From Kineosporia corallincola (lineage in GTDB: Bacteria; Actinomycetota; Actinomycetes; Actinomycetales; Kineosporiaceae): DNA of 64,000 nucleotides. The stretch is from the NCBI RefSeq assembly GCF_018499875.1, contig NZ_JAHBAY010000009.1:186001-250000 (forward strand). The letters run 5' to 3'. The notes below the pieces were generated by a model. That model was not told where the DNA came from, searched no databases, and saw nothing but the letters and a program-made list of their open reading frames with translations. The position numbers and the translations under genes are program-made. Below, piece after piece: positions 46,068 to 59,194 of this stretch (positions are counted from its first letter, which is position 1; each line of letters opens with the position of its first letter).

Positions 46068-46433
46068 TCAGCGGAGACTGGGCGGCCCGAGGTCGGGAGG
46101 CAGGTCCAGGGGGCGGCGGGCCGACTCGCGCAGGGCGGCCGCGGCCATCGCCCGCTGGTACTGCCCGGCGGTGATCACCCCGGTGAGCACCTGGTGGGCC
46201 AGAACGCCCTCCAGCGTGGAGGGGCCCGGCGGAGCGGGGCGGTCCGCGGCGACGTAACGCCGCTGGTGCTGGTGCTGGTGCTGGTGCTGGTGCTGGTGCT
46301 GGTGCTGGTGCTGGTGCTGGTGCTGGTGCTGGTGCTGGCGACGGCGCTGACGTGTCAGCTGCACCACGTCCCAGACGGTCGCCGTGGCGCCGATCGCGAT
46401 CAGGATCGCGATGAAGGTCAGATCCGAGTCCAT
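46068..46433 (-). CDS. Small membrane protein with a Gln-His repeat and SHOCT-like C-terminus
   Basis: A 121-residue protein. Residues 6-26 form one membrane span (TFIAILIAIGATATVWDVVQ); after an Arg cluster comes an uninterrupted alternation of 13 Gln and 12 His, then a short acidic-free region and a C-terminal segment STLEGVLAHQVLTGVITAGQYQRAM resembling SHOCT domains. GGGAGTGACGTC precedes ATG 46433. The His-rich tract should face the cytoplasm or outside next to the membrane and could bind Zn, Ni or Cu. The repeat DNA is a pure hexamer array and may vary in length. Confidence 0.6.
   Translation of the reverse strand: MDSDLTFIAILIAIGATATVWDVVQLTRQRRRQHQHQHQHQHQHQHQHQHQHQHQHQRRYVAADRPAPPGPSTLEGVLAHQVLTGVITAGQYQRAMAAAALRESARRPLDLPPDLGPPSLR
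46263..46337. repeat. Pure CTGGTG hexamer array coding Gln-His
   Basis: Twelve and a half perfect CTGGTG units on the plus strand, read as CAG-CAC (Gln-His) on the coding minus strand. No base differs between units, which points to recent expansion. Confidence 0.95.
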
Positions 46434-46713
46434 GACGTCACTCCCATGGCTCCACCCTCCGCCTCGCCGTCCGGCCGGTCACAGGGCCGAAAGTCAGTCG
46501 TGTGGCCGGTCGGGTGGCCGGTCGGGTGGCCGGTCGGGTGGCCGGTCGGGTGGCCGGTCGGGTAACCGGTCGGGTGGCCGGTCAGGTGGGCGGTCAGGTG
46601 GGCGGTTGTCGGGTCGGTCCTCGGAAGGGCCGGGTCCGGGAAAACCGGTTGCCGTCGGCGTGCGGCGGTTGGTTGGCTGGCGGTCCGGGTTCCGCGTTCG
46701 ACGGGAGATCCTG
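46434..46713. other. Intergenic region dominated by a 12-bp repeat
   Basis: Upstream region shared by the Gln-His repeat gene and the VOC gene. Apart from the GGCCGGTCGGGT array (46504-46599) and the ACGGGAG ribosome-binding site before 46714 nothing is recognised. Frames through the array are low complexity and not supported as genes. Confidence 0.5.
46504..46599. repeat. 12-bp non-coding tandem repeat GGCCGGTCGGGT
   Basis: Five identical copies followed by three degenerate copies, eight in all. It lies about 115 bp before the VOC gene. Its period equals that of the coding repeat in the LAL gene, and the unit is similar in composition. Confidence 0.9.
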
Positions 46714-47480: not shown

Positions 47481-48182
47481 TCATGCGCCGTTCCAGCGGT
47501 AGAGGTGGCGAGGGCGGCCGGAGGATCCGTGGCTGCGGGTCTGCGCGGCCAGGCGGCGGGAAGCCAGTTCCTCCAGGTAGTGACGGGCCGTGACCCGGGA
47601 GATACCGAGCGCCGCGGCCACCTCGTTGGCGGACACCGGCGCCCGGGTCAGCCGCAGGTGGGCAGCCACCTGGTCGATCATTCGGGGAGACGAGAGGGGT
47701 TGCGGGCTGGCCACTTCCGGCCCGGTCTCGGGGCGCAGCAGGGCCAGGGCGGAGTCCACGTCGCGCTGGGTGACCGGCTCGGAGGCATCCGCCGTGCGCT
47801 GCCGGAAGCCCGCGTACCAGCGCAGATAGCCCCGGAACGTCCTCGGGTGCAACGGTTTGAGCAGGCAGTGCACGATGCCGAGCGAGACCGCGGCGCGCAG
47901 CTGCCCGAGATCGGTGGCCGAGGTGACTGCCATGACGTCGACGGAGCGGTCGCCGGCCCGCAGGGTGCGGCACAGGTCGAGGCCGCGCACGTCCGGCAGG
48001 TCGAGGTCGAGCAGGATCAGGTCGTGCGCGGCGTGATCCAGGTGGCCGAGCACCTCGGCGCCGGTGCGGGCGAGCCCGCTGACGGTGAACCCTGCGGTGC
48101 TGCCGACGTAGCCCACGTGGGTGTCCGCGAGGAGCGGGTCGGCCTCGGCGATCAGGGTGCGGATCGGGAGTTCGCCGGTCAT
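47481..48182 (-). CDS. Orphan CitB/DcuR-type response regulator
   Basis: A 233-residue regulator: receiver domain with AEADPLLADTHVGYV, phospho-acceptor Asp in LILLDLDLPDVRGL and Lys in LLKPLHPRTF; C-terminal helix-turn-helix VSANEVAAALGISRVTARHYLEEL and YRWNGA. This is the layout of regulators of C4-dicarboxylate/citrate use. No sensor kinase is adjacent. ATG 48182 has GGACGG 8 nt upstream; ATG 48200 is in frame. It is divergent from the globin/NOS operon, 769 bp away. Confidence 0.82.
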   Translation of the reverse strand: MTGELPIRTLIAEADPLLADTHVGYVGSTAGFTVSGLARTGAEVLGHLDHAAHDLILLDLDLPDVRGLDLCRTLRAGDRSVDVMAVTSATDLGQLRAAVSLGIVHCLLKPLHPRTFRGYLRWYAGFRQRTADASEPVTQRDVDSALALLRPETGPEVASPQPLSSPRMIDQVAAHLRLTRAPVSANEVAAALGISRVTARHYLEELASRRLAAQTRSHGSSGRPRHLYRWNGA

Positions 48183-48951
48183 GGTTGCGCCGTCCGGCAT
48201 TTCGTCACCGAGCGGAGCTGTCTGATCACTGACCGCATGTGGGGCGGGGATCGCAGGAGACGATTCCCGGATGCCGGCGGCGTCGTGATGCGCGACCGGC
48301 GCGGTCCATCGTCCTCCTTCGCGGTTTCTTGCCGTCGTGTCGGCGGATCCGGGCGATCGAGAAGCGTAGTGGCGCGGGCACCCTCGCGCCAGAGTCAATT
48401 CCTACGCCCTGATATCCGACCCGCGTCGATTCCGACAGGGTTCTCCGGGTGACATCTCTCACGTGGCCGGGGTGCTGCGGAAATCTTCCGCCGCGGCAGG
48501 GCTGAACTGTTCTCCCGAGGCACTTTTCGCCGTACTACCGGGCAGAGCTGCCGAGTTTTACGCCTTAAGGGTTTCTTTGAGGAAACATTGTTGACGAGAC
48601 CGTGAATCCGGCTGGCGTCGACAGTTGTTGGAGTGATGCCCGGACAGGCTTTGTGTCGGCTGTGCCCGGCGGAATTGGTGATCCCGAACAACCCTGTGGG
48701 TCAAGGAAAATGGGGTTGCCGCGGAGTTCCCGAACGAGGGTGTGCCGAGGCTCACGGGCATAGGTGCCGAAGACCGGGCGATCGGGGCGGTCGAATGCCA
48801 TGTTAAGTAAGTTTTGTCGGGTTTGCATGTTACCGATGTTTGTTTGTAGAACGGTCCTCGACTTGTTTGCAGAACGGCCTGCGACAGCAGAACGTCTCTT
48901 CGACGCATCCGTCCGGTGGCCCTGCCCCGTTGAATCTGTAGGGAGAACTGG
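48183..48951. other. Long upstream region of the globin/NOS operon
   Basis: About 770 bases without a supported gene, one of the longest gaps in the window and less G+C-rich than average, especially 48560-48880. It holds a direct repeat at 48841-48877, an additional GTTTGCA at 48821-48827, and ends with AGGGAGA (48940-48946) before ATG 48952. The size and A/T content suggest elaborate regulation or an unrecognised short RNA. Confidence 0.55.
48841..48877 (+). promoter_or_regulatory. Tandem direct repeat upstream of the globin/NOS operon
   Basis: TGTTTGTAGAACGG (48841-48854) and TGTTTGCAGAACGG (48864-48877) differ in one base and are spaced 23 bp start to start, about two helical turns. This is the pattern of an activator or dimer half-sites, 75 bp before the globin start. 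Confidence 0.6.
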
Positions 48952-51831
48952 ATGTTTCGCGAGCCGCGCCGTTTGGAGGAGCTTCCTCCCTTCGACCCGC
49001 GGACCATCGACGTGGTGCGGCGAAGCCTCCAGACCCTGCCTCCCGACCACGTCGAGCTGACCCGTGAGTTCTACCGGCAGCTGTTCGCCATGGTCCCCGC
49101 GGCCCGGGGGATGTTCCCGGAGGACATGAACCCGCAGAGCGAGCGGCTGCTGCACGCCATCCTGATGACGGTCGAGCACCTGGACCGGCCGGAGATGGTC
49201 GAGGTGCAGCTGCGTCGCTGGGGGGCGATCCACCGGGACAAGTACAAGATCACCGACGATCTCTACCCGTACGTGGCCCACGCCCTGGTGCGGGCGCTGC
49301 GGCATCTCAACGGCGGCGATCTGGAGACGACGGTCGCCTCGTGCTGGATGGCCGTGTACGAGTGGATGGCCGCGGTGATGATCGACGGCGCCGACGCGGC
49401 GGATGCCGCGGACGCCGTGGACGCGGCCGGTGGCGCGGCTGCTGCCGTGGAGCCCGGCGCGGGTTCCGGGCACGGTGGCCCGGACCGCGCGAACGAGACA
49501 CACGGTGCCCAGGGTGCCGGAGCCCGGCCGGACGCGCGACCGGCCTCCGGAGCGCGCGCGGCGTACGCCGCCGCCCAGGCCCGTGACGAGCAGGCGGCCG
49601 CCGGTCGCGCTGGTGCCGGTTCGTCGGGGGCCGGGCCGAGTGGGCTCGCCGTCCGGAACGACGGTGCCGCCCGGTCGTCCGGTGCCGAGTCGGGGCGTCT
49701 CCTGGCCGGGCACTCCGGCGGTGGGCCGAGCTCCGCCCAGCCGGCCGCGGTCGCGGCCCGTGCCGTCGACCCCGCCCCGCCCACCCGCCCGACCCGGACC
49801 GCCGACGTGTTCGCCCCGCGGCCGGTCTACCGGCCCGAGGCCGAGGAGCCCGGCCGCGGTCAGGGCCATGCCGATCAGGGTGGTTACGGGCAGAGCGGTG
49901 ACCCGGACGACGGCTACGGCCAGGACCCCGCCGACCAGACCGTCGACGCGCGTGAGGGCTACGGCCTCGCCGTCTACGGGCAGGACGCCGACGACACCGC
50001 CCACGGGCAGCAGGATTACGCGCAGCCGGACTATGCGCAGCCGGGATACGGCCAGCCGGGTCACGGGCAGTCCGGGCGCGGTCAGGCGGGTCACGGGCCT
50101 TCCGGGCGCGAGAAGCTGGGATACGGGCGGCCCGGATACGAGCGTTCCGGCCACCCGCAGCCCGGTTACCCGCAGCCCGGCGCCGAGCAGCAGGGGTACG
50201 CGGGCCAGGACCGTGCTGGGCAGGGTCACGCGGGGCAGGGCTACGCGGGCCAGGAGCACGCCGGGCAAGCTCGGCCGGGCCAGGAGCACGCCGGGCAAGC
50301 TCACCCGGGCCAGGGGTATGCCGCGCAGGGTTACGCGGACCGGGACCACGCCGGGCAGGGACCCGCGAATCAGGGCCGCGCAGGCCAGGACTGGGCGGCC
50401 CAGGACCACACCGATCGGCGTGACCCGGGCCGGAACTGGGCCGGTCAGGACTACGCCGGGCACGGCAGTACCGGTCAGGGTGACGCGGCCCCGACCTGGG
50501 CCGACCAGGACTACGCCGCCCAGGGCGACCCGGGCCGGAACTGGGCCGACCAGGACCACGCCGGGCACGGCAACACCGGGCAGGACGACCCGGGCCGGAG
50601 CTGGGCCGATCAGAACTACGCCGGCCGGGGCCAGACCGGCCAGGATGACGTGGCTCAGGGCTGGGCGGATCAGGACCACGCCGGGCAAGGCCACGCCGAC
50701 CAGGGCTGGGCGGATCAGGACCACGCCGGGCAAGGCCACGCCGACCAGGGCTGGGCCGATCAGAACCACGCCGACCAGAACCACACTGACCAGGGTTACG
50801 CCGAGCAGGGTTACGCCGAGCAGGGTTACGCCGAGCAGGGTTACGCCGGGCAGAGCCATGCCAACCAGGGCTGGGCTAACCAGAACCATGCCGAGCAGGG
50901 CTGGGCTAACCAGAACCATGCCGAGCAGGGCTGGGCCGACCAGGGTTACGCCGGGCAGGGGCCCGCGGATCAGCGCTATTCGGAGCAGGCCTACGGGGAC
51001 ACCGCTCCGGTGCAACGGGTCCAGGAAGAGATCGCCCACTGGCAGACCGGCCTCCAGACGGACGGCTGGGCGCAGCCCGGCGCCGGGGCGGGCCGTGAAC
51101 CGGGCGGCCCGGCGAACTCCGGCGCGATGCGGCAGCTGCCCGCGACGCCGGACGGTCAGCGGGGCGGCCCGGGAACCGGATCGATGCGGCAGGTGCCGGG
51201 TCGGCCCGGCGGGTCCGGCCGGACCGGCTCCCTGCGGCAGGTGGCGGGTCAGACGGGTTCCGTGCCGCAGGTGGGACGTCCGCAGCCCGGCATCGGCCAG
51301 ACCGGCTCCATGCGTCAGCTGGGTGCCCCCGACGCCGGAGGCCCGGTGCGCCGGCTCCCGTCACGGCCGGCGGGACAGCCGGGCGGGCCCGGGCAGACGG
51401 GGTCGATGCGCCAGGTGACCGGGCGTCCCGGGCCGGCGCAGGGTGGCACGGGCTCGATGCCGCAGATCCCCGCCCGCCAGCAGGACCACTCCGGAAACAG
51501 CCGTGGCGAAACGGTTTACCGGTACGCCGATGACGCCCAGGCCTACGACGAGCAGCAGTACGACGAGCAGCAGGGCCGCGGCTGGACGGGCCAGGACCAG
51601 TACGCCGACGACCAGTGGTCCGACCCGCAGCCCGCCGCCGACCAGTACGCCCAGCAGGGATATGCCCAGCAGGGATACGGCGGCGCCCGGTACGCCCGGC
51701 AGCCGTACGGCGAGCAGTACATCGACGAGCCGCACCGCTCGCAGCAGCAGTATCCGGCCGCGGACGACGATCGGGACACCCAACCGCAGCCGGGGTACCC
51801 GGCGGCCGACTCCTGGCAGGGCAAGCGATGA
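48952..51831 (+). CDS. Flavohemoglobin-type globin with a 53-unit pentad-repeat low-complexity tail
   Basis: The 959-residue product starts with a single globin domain (about 15-145). REFYRQLFAMVPAARGMF carries Tyr41 at the B10 position, PQSERLLHAIL carries Gln62 at E7, and RRWGAIHRDKYKITDDLYP carries the probable proximal His94 eleven residues before Tyr105; this trio is the heme pocket of flavohemoglobin NO dioxygenases. No FAD/NAD reductase domain follows. Instead come an Ala/Gly/Pro-rich segment (145-300), GYGQ-type repeats (300-416), 53 exact pentads A-[DGE]-Q-[GDN]-[YWH] (417-681), about eight TGSMRQ-like motifs (723-839) and a Gln/Tyr/Asp-rich end. AGGGAGA precedes ATG 48952. Its TGA overlaps the ATG of the NOS gene (ATGA). 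Oxidation or buffering of NO made by the partner is the likely role; scaffolding by the tail is inference. Confidence 0.88.
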   Translation: MFREPRRLEELPPFDPRTIDVVRRSLQTLPPDHVELTREFYRQLFAMVPAARGMFPEDMNPQSERLLHAILMTVEHLDRPEMVEVQLRRWGAIHRDKYKITDDLYPYVAHALVRALRHLNGGDLETTVASCWMAVYEWMAAVMIDGADAADAADAVDAAGGAAAAVEPGAGSGHGGPDRANETHGAQGAGARPDARPASGARAAYAAAQARDEQAAAGRAGAGSSGAGPSGLAVRNDGAARSSGAESGRLLAGHSGGGPSSAQPAAVAARAVDPAPPTRPTRTADVFAPRPVYRPEAEEPGRGQGHADQGGYGQSGDPDDGYGQDPADQTVDAREGYGLAVYGQDADDTAHGQQDYAQPDYAQPGYGQPGHGQSGRGQAGHGPSGREKLGYGRPGYERSGHPQPGYPQPGAEQQGYAGQDRAGQGHAGQGYAGQEHAGQARPGQEHAGQAHPGQGYAAQGYADRDHAGQGPANQGRAGQDWAAQDHTDRRDPGRNWAGQDYAGHGSTGQGDAAPTWADQDYAAQGDPGRNWADQDHAGHGNTGQDDPGRSWADQNYAGRGQTGQDDVAQGWADQDHAGQGHADQGWADQDHAGQGHADQGWADQNHADQNHTDQGYAEQGYAEQGYAEQGYAGQSHANQGWANQNHAEQGWANQNHAEQGWADQGYAGQGPADQRYSEQAYGDTAPVQRVQEEIAHWQTGLQTDGWAQPGAGAGREPGGPANSGAMRQLPATPDGQRGGPGTGSMRQVPGRPGGSGRTGSLRQVAGQTGSVPQVGRPQPGIGQTGSMRQLGAPDAGGPVRRLPSRPAGQPGGPGQTGSMRQVTGRPGPAQGGTGSMPQIPARQQDHSGNSRGETVYRYADDAQAYDEQQYDEQQGRGWTGQDQYADDQWSDPQPAADQYAQQGYAQQGYGGARYARQPYGEQYIDEPHRSQQQYPAADDDRDTQPQPGYPAADSWQGKR
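50200..50994 (+). repeat. 53 uninterrupted 15-bp units coding Ala-x-Gln-x-aromatic pentads
   Basis: The 795 bases divide exactly into 53 pentapeptides without any insertion. Position 1 is nearly always Ala, position 3 Gln, position 5 Tyr, Trp or His; position 2 is Gly, Asp, Glu or Asn. Near-identical DNA blocks, such as the 45-bp duplication at 50671-50760, three TACGCCGAGCAGGGT units near 50805-50850, and a 30-bp duplication near 50880-50940, show recent internal expansion. The consensus is not the A-(D/N)-L-x-x pentapeptide-repeat fold. Confidence 0.9.
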
Positions 51832-53468
51832 GCCAGCAGAACCTGCACGTCGGCCAGGGCATGGGTGCGGTCCCGGGGATGGACGTCCCGGCGTTCGAGG
51901 CGGGCGCCCCCACGGTGGCGGTCCGCACCACCGCACCGGTGGCGGGAGCGTCCCCGAAATCGTCCGGGCACCCGCTGTTCCGCCCGACCACGGCGTTCAC
52001 CCACGACACCGAGCGGCCGGGCATCGACCCGGACCGGGTGGCCGCGGACTGGGCCCTGATGTACGAGTGGCTCGAGCGTGACCAGGAGATGGCGGCGGTC
52101 TGCGGTTTCGCGCCCGGCGACCTGAATCTCTCGGCCCGCCAGGCCCGCATCAACGAGCTGCGGGCCGAGGTCGGCCCCGGCCGCACCTTCGAGGTGCGCC
52201 CGGCCGAGATGCAGTTCTGGGTGCGCTATTCCTGGATCAACTCCGACCGCTGCTCCGGTCGCCAGCACGCGCTCCAGCACGCCGTGATCCAGTACCGGCC
52301 GGAGGTGCGCAGCGCCGTCGACATGCTGCGCGCCGTGGTCGAGCACGCGGACGTCGCGATGTCCGCGCCGGTGCCGCCGCAGACGGTCATCACCGTGCTC
52401 GGCGCCCCGACCCCGCCGGGGCGGCTCGGCCCGCTGTTCGTGTCCGAGCAGATGCTCCGCCCCGCGGGTTACCGCCTGCCCGGCGGCCGGTGGACCGGTG
52501 ACGGCGGCTACCTCGACCTCACCGACTGGGTGCGCGCGCACGGCGGCGCCGGGCTGATCGAGCCGGTGCCCGGCTACCGCCCCGGCACGTTCGACCTGCT
52601 GCCGATGGTCGCGATGGGCGCGGACGGCGAGCTGGTGATGGCCACGGTGCCGAAGAGCGAGCGCTTCCTCATCGACATCCCCTGGCCCCGGCACCCGGAG
52701 AGCGAGCCGGACGGCGGCGACGACTCCGGTTACGGCGAGGCGTTCGCGACCTGGCCGGCCATCCCGCTCCAGACCAACTTCGACCTGGACATCGCCGGCC
52801 AGCGCTACTGCCTGATCTTCAACGGCTGGTACGTCGACGAGGAGCTGGCCACCAACTTCCTCGACGTGAACCGTTACGACTGGGCCGGCCGGGTCAGCGA
52901 GGCCATCCACGGTCCGGTCGATCAGCAGATGCTCTCGCGCACGGACCGTTTCGACGAGTACCGGACGGCGCAGATCGAGATCGCCACGCTGCGGGCGATC
53001 CGGGCCGGGTTCAAGAAGGCCCGGATGAAGATGAACAACCTGTCGGCCAGCCAGAGCGGCTTCGGCAAGTTCTGCGAGCGGCACCTCACCACCCACGGCG
53101 AGATGCCGCCCAACGACACCGGATGGACGGCGAACCGGGTCGGCTCCCGCTTCCGCTACGCCAGCCACCCGATGCCGCACCTGCCGCAGGAACGTGGCGC
53201 GGCCCTGGTCAAGCACTGGCTCACGGTGAAGTCGCTGCGCCCTGACGTGCCGGTGCACGTCGCCGACCTGGAGACCGGCCAGCTGACCGGGCCGCCGGCG
53301 AACCCGAACGTGAACCCGAACCCGGCCGAGGTGGCGGGCCGCCCCGGCCGTCACGCGATGCCGGTCTCCTACGCACGTGAACCCGGGCGCGAACCAGGCC
53401 GCGATCCCGGCCGGGATCTGCCGGACGAGGGCGCCCCCGCCCGCGGCGGCTGCCCGGTCGCCCACTGA
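51828..53468 (+). CDS. Divergent bacterial nitric-oxide-synthase oxygenase
   Basis: A 546-residue protein whose residues about 105-455 follow the NOS oxygenase domain in order: SWINSDRCSGR with heme-ligand Cys142 (WRNxxRCIGR in other NOS), SEQMLRPAGY with Gln208, RPGTFDLLPMV, LIDIPWPRHPE, FATWPAIPLQ, and the substrate-site IFNGWYVDEEL with Glu339, then NRYDW. The family makes NO and citrulline from L-arginine with an external reductase. Differences: the Arg of TEIGxR is missing, VDHH is replaced by MNNLS, and the pterin-site WxWxIPP is GWTANRVG, so cofactor use may differ. It has a 50-residue N-terminal extension and a Pro/Arg tail ending GGCPVAH. ATG 51828 overlaps the globin stop, so the two are translated together. 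Catalytic activity is inferred. Confidence 0.88.
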   Translation: MSQQNLHVGQGMGAVPGMDVPAFEAGAPTVAVRTTAPVAGASPKSSGHPLFRPTTAFTHDTERPGIDPDRVAADWALMYEWLERDQEMAAVCGFAPGDLNLSARQARINELRAEVGPGRTFEVRPAEMQFWVRYSWINSDRCSGRQHALQHAVIQYRPEVRSAVDMLRAVVEHADVAMSAPVPPQTVITVLGAPTPPGRLGPLFVSEQMLRPAGYRLPGGRWTGDGGYLDLTDWVRAHGGAGLIEPVPGYRPGTFDLLPMVAMGADGELVMATVPKSERFLIDIPWPRHPESEPDGGDDSGYGEAFATWPAIPLQTNFDLDIAGQRYCLIFNGWYVDEELATNFLDVNRYDWAGRVSEAIHGPVDQQMLSRTDRFDEYRTAQIEIATLRAIRAGFKKARMKMNNLSASQSGFGKFCERHLTTHGEMPPNDTGWTANRVGSRFRYASHPMPHLPQERGAALVKHWLTVKSLRPDVPVHVADLETGQLTGPPANPNVNPNPAEVAGRPGRHAMPVSYAREPGREPGRDPGRDLPDEGAPARGGCPVAH

Positions 53469-56950: not shown

Positions 56951-59194
56951 TCAGATCAGGTTCGGGCCCCGCAGATCGAACCGGTCGAGGTCGCTGACCT
57001 TGACCCAGGCCGCCACGAAGTCGTTGACGAACTTCGTCTTGGCGTCCTCGCTGGCGTAGACCTCGGCGAGGGCGCGCAGCTGGGAGTTGGAGCCGAAGAT
57101 CAGGTCCACCGCGGTGGCGGTGTACTTGACCTCGTCGGTGGCCAGGTCACGGATCTCGTAGACGTGCTCGCCCTCGGCGGCCTTCCACTTCGTGCCGGGG
57201 GAGAGCAGGTTGACGAAGAAGTCGTTCGTCAGCACACCCGGCTTGTCGGTGAACACACCGTGGGCGCTGCCGCCGACGTTGTTGCCGAGCACCCGCAGGC
57301 CACCGATCAGCACCGTGGTCTCGGGGGCGGTCAGGTTGAGCATGTAGGCCCGGTCGACCAGCAGCACCTCGGGCTGGGTCTTCTCGCCCTCGCGCAGGTA
57401 CTGGCGGAAGCCGTCGGCCCGCGGCTCGAGCACCGCGAACGAGTCGACGTCCGTCTCCTCCTGGGTGGCGTCGGTGCGACCGGCGTGGAACGGCACGGTC
57501 ACCTCGACCCCGGCGTCCCGGGCGGCCTTCTCCACGGCGGCCGCACCGGCCAGCACGATCAGGTCTGCCAGGGAGATCTGGGCACCGCCGGCGGCGTCGA
57601 ACTCGGACTTGATGCCGCCGAGCACACCGAGCACCTTGGACAGCTGCTCCGGCTGGTTGACCTCCCAGCTCCGCTGCGGCTCCAGGGCGATGCGGGCGCC
57701 GTTCGCGCCACCGCGCTTGTCGGTGGAACGGAAGGTGGCGGCGCTGGCCCAGGCGGTCTGCACCAGCTCGGCCACGGTCAGGCCGGAGGCCAGCACCTTG
57801 GCCTTGAGGGCGCTCACGTCGGCGTCCGACACCAGGGTGCCCGTGGCGGCCGGCACCGGGTCCTGCCACAGCTGCGGCTCGGCGACCCAGGGGCCGAGGA
57901 AGCGGCTGACCGGGCCCATGTCACGGTGCAGCAGCTTGTACCAGGCCTTGGCGAAGGCCAGGCGGAACTCCTCCGGGTTCTCCAGGAACCGCTTCGAGAT
58001 CTCGCCGTAGACCGGGTCGAAGCGCAGCGACAGGTCGGTCGTGAGCATCGTCGGACGGTACTTCTTGGACGCGTCGTAGGCGTCCGGGATGATCTTGTCG
58101 TCGGTCTTGGCCACGTAGTGCTTGCCGCCACCGGGGCCGGTGGTGAGCTCCCACTCGTACCCGAAGAGGATCTCGAAGAAGCGGTTGCTCCACTCGGTCG
58201 GGCGGTCGGTCCAGGTCACCTCGATGCCGGAGGTGATGGTGTCTTTGCCCTTACCGCTGCCGTGCGAGCTGAGCCAGCCCAGGCCCTGCGCCTCGATGCC
58301 CTCGCCCTCCGGCTCCGGGCCCACGTCGCCGGTGTGCGCGCCGTGCGTCTTGCCGAAGGTGTGACCACCGGCGATCAGCGCGACGGTCTCCTCGTCGTTC
58401 ATCGCCATCCGGGCGAAGGTCTCCCGGATGAACGCGGCCGCCTGGAGGAAGTCGGCGTTGCCCTTGGGGCCCTCGGGGTTGACGTAGATGAGGCCCATCT
58501 CGGTGGCCCCGACACCGGGCAGCATGTCCTTCTCGGACACGTAGCGGGAGTCGGCCAGCCAGGTGTCCTCCGGACCCCAGAAGATCTCCTCGGGCTCCCA
58601 CACGTCGGGGCGGCCGAAGCCGAAACCGAAGGTCTGGAAGCCCATCGACTCCAGGGCCACGTTGCCGGCGAGCACCAGCAGGTCGGCCCACGACACCTTC
58701 TGGCCGTACTTCTGCTTGACCGGCCACAGCAGGCGGCGGGCCTTGTCCAGGTTGGCGTTGTCGGGCCAGCTGTTCAGCGGGGCGAAGCGCTGCCCGCCGT
58801 CACCGGCGCCACCCCGGCCGTCCTCGATCCGGTAGGTGCCGGCGGCGTGCCAGCTCATCCGGATCATCAGGCCGCCGTAGTGCCCGAAGTCGGCCGGCCA
58901 CCAGTCCTGCGAGCTGGTGAGCACCTCGGCGATGTCGGCCTTGAGGGCCTCCACGTCGAGCTTCGCGAACTCCTCGGCGTAGTCGAAGTCCTCGCCCAGC
59001 GGGTTGCCCTTGGACGAGTGGGCGTGCAGGACCGACAGGTCGAGCTGGTTGGGCCACCAGTCCCGGTTGGTGCGCGGTGCGCCACCGGTCTTCGGCTCCG
59101 GCGGCTTGATCGCCGGGTTCTCGCTCTCGCTGCCCTGGGCCGTGACCGAGTCGTGCGCGACCGGGCAACCGCCCGCGTTCTGGGTGTCGCTCAT
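56951..59194 (-). CDS. katG: Catalase-peroxidase
   Basis: A 747-residue bifunctional heme catalase-peroxidase. The distal site is [10 protein letters not shown] (Arg112, Trp115, His116), the Trp-Tyr-Met adduct residues are Trp115, Tyr237 and Met263, and the proximal site is [12 protein letters not shown] (His278). The second, heme-free peroxidase-like repeat follows. It removes hydrogen peroxide in the cytoplasm. The N-terminus has GGCPVAH at residues 8-14. GGAAGGAA precedes ATG 59194. It lies 23 bp downstream of a fur-family gene in the same transcript. Confidence 0.96.

Follow-up and report, generated by a model that had tools for sequence, protein, structure and literature searches.

We analysed a 64,000-nucleotide stretch of DNA from Kineosporia corallincola (contig NZ_JAHBAY010000009.1, positions 186,001 to 250,000; hereafter the window), which forms part of a genome of 8.2 Mb (G000; G and L numbers denote genomes and loci). 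Two open reading frames (ORFs) on its forward strand, one encoding a globin (48952-51831, 959 amino acids (aa)) and the other a divergent relative of nitric oxide synthase (NOS; 51828-53468, 546 aa), are joined by a four-base ATGA overlap. A preliminary description of the locus had reported this overlap, and we recovered it at 51828-51831; the coordinates and residue positions given there are also right. Residues of the NOS-like protein were compared in a 47-row alignment of 6 Kineosporia NOS-like proteins, 32 ordinary NOS rows from actinobacterial loci (one gene appearing twice, L068 = L079), 7 plasmid-borne NOS (an archaeon, Nostoc and Deinococcus among the sources), eNOS and SyNOS, the enzyme of Synechococcus PCC 7335. 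The features of the pair are as follows.

48952..51831, forward strand: globin gene, 959 aa, with the domain within residues 1-150 (PF00042; Protein Data Bank (PDB) entries 3wfw and 3s1i)
49402..51828, forward strand: low-complexity repeat tail of the globin, 809 aa after residue 150, rich in Gly, Ala, Gln and Asp (Tandem Repeats Finder; composition)
51778..51822, forward strand: C-terminal motif of the globin, TQP[QR]PGxPA, two to three residues, W, then QG (not in L011) (codon comparison of five species; sixth copy in L106)
51828..51831, forward strand: ATGA overlap of the globin and NOS-like genes, kept in L009, L010, L012 and L106 and not in L011
51828..53468, forward strand: divergent NOS-like heme-thiolate oxygenase gene, 546 aa (PF02898; predicted fold)
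52251..52253, forward strand: codon of Cys142, proximal heme thiolate (column Cys in 32/32 ordinary NOS rows)
52770..52772, forward strand: codon of Gln315, distal-heme position (column Ile in 30, Val in 2 and Gln in 0 of the 32 ordinary NOS rows)
52842..52844, forward strand: codon of Glu339, guanidinium-binding Glu (column Glu in 32/32 ordinary NOS rows)
53448..53465, forward strand: C-terminal GCPVAH tag (GCPVxH in 6/6 Kineosporia NOS-like rows)

A divergent member of the NOS family

The preliminary description had staked its NOS-oxygenase-like protein on a match to PF02898 (NO_synthase), which was found at 95.1 bits (E = 5.6e-27, residues 102-428; curated cut-off 22.7). The heme Cys142 and substrate Glu339 that it named hold up in the alignment: both agree with all 32 ordinary NOS rows, and neither varies among the 6 Kineosporia rows. 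The proximal-heme motif W-x-N-x-x-[RK]-C-x-G-R is complete (Trp136, Asn138, Arg141, Cys142, Gly144 and Arg145), and the arginine-site residues Glu339, Trp334, Tyr335, Gln208, Arg211 and Asn343 are kept in 6/6 Kineosporia proteins, among them the Glu339 and Trp334 by which ordinary NOS is recognized at the guanidinium site. Overall, 139 columns reach 85% conservation or more among the ordinary NOS rows, and all six proteins retain 52 of them, with the canonical residue present in all six at 15/19 active-site positions versus 37/120 other conserved columns (Fisher p = 9e-5, a value flattered by a 19-site list that was drawn from iNOS numbering and chosen after the alignment had been seen).

Judged by its sequence, the NOS-like protein stands far apart from the rest of the family, a degree of divergence that the preliminary description understated while placing the family and the key residues correctly. 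It is only 21.1-28.4% identical to the 41 other NOS rows, and thus lies outside the range of ordinary NOS, which are at least 37.3% identical among themselves (median 53.7%). An ordinary NOS from the same genus (G003, L014) scores 468.4 bits with PF02898 versus 95.1 for the window protein; in the PDB search that enzyme reaches 391 bits with eNOS, and the best match of the window protein is SyNOS (9q05, 80.8 bits). The Kineosporia proteins sit on an extremely long branch of the tree (5.76 + 3.22 changes per column across the midpoint), too long for its point of attachment to be fixed.

A NOS-type fold is a fair prediction, partly steered by its input. An AlphaFold2 model made with ordinary NOS in the alignment (32/38 rows) had a predicted local distance difference test score (pLDDT) of 77 and a predicted template modelling score of 0.80, and its residues 48-480 aligned with iNOS over 354 residues (Z 33.3, root-mean-square deviation 2.7), the ordinary rows steering this result in part; the fold comparison realigned Foldseek's own matches and is silent on other folds. 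With a Kineosporia-only alignment, the pLDDT was 33.

The C-terminal GCPVxH was considered as a specific mark of heme enzymes and found no support as such, with 6 DNA matches in the own genome versus 3 for a reversed control pattern. These six lie in the NOS-like gene and in KatG (both terminal), inside a P450-reductase, at the end of a 93-aa ORF and at two places without a motif-holding ORF. In the KatG of the window, a Cys-Pro motif stands near the start (59153-59170). Cys-Pro, often as GCPVxx or GCPFGH, occurs in the end regions of 24/39 ordinary NOS ORFs from several phyla (for example, L085, L086, L068 and L075), a count that includes one gene twice, is not confined to the very tip and comes without a chance control. 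The Cys-Pro end motif is perhaps a heme-handling motif.

Ordinary NOS genes were also seen in other company. At L014:2753-8968 (G003), the gene lies with a ThiF-type enzyme, a major facilitator superfamily transporter and a prolyl oligopeptidase, an arrangement that resembles a biosynthetic cluster with a possible use for nitric oxide (NO). On plasmids of Novosphingobium and Jannaschia (L088 and L089), a NOS gene overlaps a radical SAM gene by 4 bases.

A reductase-less globin with a repeat tail

The first protein was expected to be a globin carrying Tyr41, Gln62 and His94 and no reductase, and Pfam, NCBIfam and the PDB alignment bear this out. PF00042 (Globin) matches residues 39-143 (E = 9.7e-8), with no second Pfam domain in the 959 aa at E <= 0.001. 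The NCBIfam flavohemoprotein model covers residues 15-152 only, at 49.8 bits versus a cut-off of 432, and the reductase half is therefore missing; FAD/NAD domains, both detected by the same scan in true flavohemoglobins, were not detected in the window globin, and the Pfam and NCBIfam scans found no reductase domain encoded by either gene of the pair. Tyr41, Gln62 and His94 align with the Tyr, Gln and His of Methylacidiphilum infernorum globins in the PDB (3s1i and 3wfw) and are invariant in the 5 aligned Kineosporia rows. We take them to be the B10 Tyr, the E7 Gln and the proximal His, which, with the globin domain, are the features of a single-domain F-type globin. In 4/6 Kineosporia genomes, the own included, the pair globin is the sole PF00042 globin at E <= 0.001, a count that leaves out truncated globins (PF01152).

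Beyond residue 150, the tail consists of nested repeats, mostly of 15, 30 and 45 bp according to Tandem Repeats Finder. In five species it is of low complexity, contains no Cys and two Lys at most, and ranges in length from 340 to 849 residues. The codons of its terminal TQP[QR]PGxPA...W vary synonymously between species, as expected for a motif conserved at the protein level, and the Gln-Gly codons that follow overlie the likely ribosome-binding site of the NOS-like gene. The preliminary description had cast this tail as a tether holding the two proteins together; a segment so variable in length, with only a short C-terminal motif kept, gives that proposal no support, and we regard it as weak.

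In the class, relatives of the globin gave profile matches at E <= 1e-12 in 116/394 genomes, although globins can have been missed in a search that scored at most 9 candidates per genome. The nearest belong to family f35 (E 1e-28 to 1e-40). Among the fetched f35 globins, 12/14 begin at profile positions 4-9 and therefore share most of the N-terminal extension.

Conservation and surroundings of the pair

The globin/NOS-like pair was found in 6/6 Kineosporia genomes searched, with the ATGA overlap kept in 5/6, which rules out a chance overlap. The preliminary description would have yielded to a NOS that never accompanies the globin in relatives; within the genus, the two occur together without exception. 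The genes are adjacent in L009, L010, L011 and L012; in L011, a gap of 8 bases follows the globin stop, with the AGGG of the likely ribosome-binding site still present. In G002 the unit is split, as a contig ends inside the NOS N-terminus: globin, ATGA overlap and NOS start lie on that contig and the remainder on another. Both genes are under purifying selection, since nonsynonymous divergence (dN) is well below synonymous divergence (dS) in the NOS core (dN 0.11-0.15 and dS 0.34-0.53, window versus five relatives) and in the globin domain (dN 0.13-0.16 and dS 0.38-0.70, window versus four relatives), giving dN/dS of 0.19-0.39 across the two.

The NOS-like gene was detected in 6/6 genomes of the genus and in 0/7 from elsewhere in the family. 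Among 396 genomes drawn from the order, it was again confined to the same six Kineosporia (E <= 1e-6), and in a draw of 396 from the phylum the own genome alone passed E 1e-30. The class draw (394 genomes) gave 61 with a NOS match at E <= 0.001, comprising the own genome, 52 at E <= 1e-9 and 8 weak matches (E 1.9e-5 to 9.7e-4) that were set aside as probably unrelated. The 52 matches share 28-38% local identity with the window protein (best, 95.3 bits); the 30 that were read as loci (L049-L077 and L078) all carry the ordinary NOS motif, and 22 are known from the match alone. Plasmid records contributed 14 matches among 72,556, at 23-31% identity. The divergent protein was thus found in no other genus searched, the genome draws being overlapping samples all within the own phylum. 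By title and abstract start, no globin/NOS-like operon is described among the literature matches listed (subscription papers and preprints being outside the scope), and the matches for Kineosporia with nitric oxide synthase include none on the subject.

Upstream of the pair lie two further conserved features.

47481..48200, reverse strand: response regulator gene (receiver plus DpiA-like helix-turn-helix (HTH)), divergent from the globin gene (PF00072, E = 4.7e-16; PF20714)
48815..48862, forward strand: conserved upstream block, in which 14 variable bases separate two 17-bp halves (five-region alignment)

The listed ORF of the response regulator extends to 48398, and we infer a start near 48200 from lengths in relatives. 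Such a divergent gene adjoins the globin in 6/6 genomes (window, L009-L012 and L101), a constant neighbour that the preliminary description lacked; PF00072 and PF20714 were both found in the copies of L009, L015, L016 and L101. In the window, the block spans bases 90-137 upstream of the start of the globin gene. Its pattern, which was written from a five-species alignment and allows two alternatives at each of five positions, was found in front of the globin in loci from each of the six genomes and is absent from every other locus (14/107 loci carry it and 93 do not). The block is probably a promoter or regulator site. A search for known RNA elements upstream gave a single match, at 20.3 bits versus a gathering score of 67.9, and scans for sigma-70-type promoters and terminators found nothing.

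Membership of the pair in a wider operon was considered and rejected, for PhzF, for which the surroundings of the pair in relatives held no match exceeding 45 bits, and for an HTH gene, whose sole match is distant (28%) and ~3 kb off in K. mesophila. KatG lies 3.5 kb downstream and, in the relatives' fetched stretches, was matched only in L009 (G003), ~6 kb from its NOS-like gene. Short tandem repeats were also seen upstream of the unit, at 46068-46565 of the window, where a minus-strand ORF reads HQHQHQ and a plus-strand ORF reads VGWPVGWP.

Possible function and relation to known systems

The best single reading of these genes, to which we give roughly an even chance, is that the pair makes NO, or a related product, and carries its own globin scavenger. 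The NOS-like oxygenase would oxidize a guanidino substrate, most likely L-arginine, and release NO or a related nitrogen oxide, and the reductase-less globin would bind O2 and dioxygenate NO to nitrate. Free NO would stay low, and the cell would gain nitrate or a controlled pulse. With no reductase domain encoded in the pair, both heme centres are proposed to receive their electrons from general cellular reductases, and the adjoining response regulator probably controls transcription through the conserved upstream block. Coupling of an NO source to a globin sink is supported by SyNOS, in which the two are fused, and by two actinobacterial loci in which an ordinary NOS gene adjoins a flavohemoglobin gene with its reductase domains: in G147 (L078:8536-11132) the flavohemoglobin follows in tandem after two bases, and in G312 (L079:8726-11357) the two genes are divergent. 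The preliminary description had proposed the same source and sink; the split operon is real and conserved and this interpretation remains the best one, but given how far the protein lies from the rest of its family, arginine-to-NO chemistry is likely and cannot be granted.

Several findings weigh against this reading. In 6/6 Kineosporia proteins, Gln315 occupies the distal position that is Val or Ile in ordinary NOS, and Ile in all bacterial NOS according to PMC6104048. Likewise in 6/6, Thr342 stands at the pterin Arg (Arg in 32/32 ordinary rows; a one-residue alignment gap lies beside it), Thr431 replaces the first Trp of WxW, the second being kept as Trp433, and Pro310 replaces the Tyr or His of the arginine pocket. 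With these four replacements, NO may therefore not be the product. The globin, in turn, is of a type that is not tied to NOS outside Kineosporia: the ~1.5-kb flanks of 14 close relatives (L019-L032, from genera of a different family) contained no NOS match, and in 7/11 inspected (L019, L020, L022-L025 and L030) the neighbour is a PNPOx-type (pyridoxamine-phosphate-oxidase-like) flavoprotein gene, a possible electron donor, so that NO removal is not the sole possible role. Furthermore, 2/6 Kineosporia genomes hold a separate flavohemoglobin with both reductase domains. A globin adjoins ordinary NOS in at least 2/52 class genomes, most having no such neighbour, and NOS therefore needs no adjacent globin in general; this count is a minimum, taken over globins that match the Kineosporia profile at E 1e-12 or better in a set with many draft assemblies. 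Finally, SyNOS is not among the 22 PDB chains that phmmer matched to the window globin at E <= 0.1, and it therefore serves only as an analogy.

A second possibility is that the enzyme is a heme-thiolate oxygenase of altered chemistry, acting on another guanidino substrate, stopping at N-hydroxylation or releasing nitroxyl or nitrite, with the globin supplying O2 or protecting the enzyme from NO. Gln315, Pro310, Thr342 and Thr431, fixed in all six proteins, fit this explanation, as do the identity gap to other NOS (21.1-28.4% versus at least 37.3%) and the low PF02898 score beside that of the ordinary enzyme of G003 (95.1 versus 468.4 bits); the arginine-site residues Glu339, Trp334, Tyr335, Gln208, Arg211 and Asn343, kept 6/6, point the other way. 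We hold it to be the less probable of the two, though a serious contender that deserves experimental weight equal to that of an NO source with its sink. An allied and similarly tentative proposal places the Kineosporia proteins on a branch of their own within the NOS superfamily, one not described before and distinct from all the enzymes compared, whether bacterial, archaeal, cyanobacterial or mammalian. The distal Gln and altered pterin site would then give a different nitrogen-oxide chemistry, and a dedicated partner globin would make the final product, nitrate or other.

The regulator that accompanies the globin in 6/6 genomes, together with the conserved upstream block, would also suit a signalling module, with the globin as sensor or buffer of O2 or NO and the NOS-like enzyme adjusted by the divergently encoded response regulator. 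We consider this rather unlikely; a linked regulator fits any function, and no histidine-kinase gene was seen alongside (most neighbours having been read by eye, without annotation). That the pair is decaying or accidental is highly improbable: its restriction to one genus and its highly variable tail could be read that way, but dN well below dS in both genes contradicts it through purifying selection, as do five uninterrupted copies and one split over two contigs.

Described NOS have a highly conserved catalytic pocket in common (PMC9500659). A natural relative that keeps most arginine and heme residues while changing the distal and pterin positions would offer a direct test of what defines NOS. 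If the NO source and globin sink are confirmed, the pair would represent the arginine-to-nitrate route of SyNOS divided over two proteins and would suggest that such coupling arose several times.

Besides the Kineosporia pair, there are three other NOS-globin arrangements, the fused SyNOS, the tandem genes of L078 and the divergent genes of L079. The last two resemble the pair in that NOS adjoins a globin gene, and differ from it in having an ordinary NOS and a full flavohemoglobin. SyNOS is classed as type II bacterial NOS in PMC9500659, and PMC6104048 and PMC12922734 describe a single chain that joins NOS to an NO-dioxygenase globin and moves arginine nitrogen to nitrate. Like the Kineosporia pair, it combines a NOS oxygenase with a bacterial globin, and it is the top PDB match of the NOS-like protein. 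However, SyNOS is a single chain with reductase, C2 and pseudoglobin modules (PMC12922734), whereas Kineosporia has two genes and no reductase domain, and the globin, oxygenase and reductase that SyNOS unites in one polypeptide are here reduced to two ORFs; oxygenase identity is 28.2%, and the distal site is Gln in Kineosporia and Ile in SyNOS.

Type I bacterial NOS, which consists of the oxygenase only (PMC9500659), shares with the NOS-like protein an oxygenase standing alone, the heme Cys, the arginine Glu and the bacterial Asn in place of Asp, but the Kineosporia proteins show 21-28% identity versus at least 37%, replaced distal and pterin residues and a long variable N-terminus. Flavohemoglobin (Hmp) has the same globin domain with a Tyr, Gln and His pocket, whereas the Kineosporia globin has a low-complexity tail where the FAD/NAD part, of which none was found, would stand. 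The M. infernorum globins (3s1i and 3wfw) are the best PDB matches of the window globin, to which Kineosporia adds N-terminal residues, a long tail and a NOS-like partner gene.

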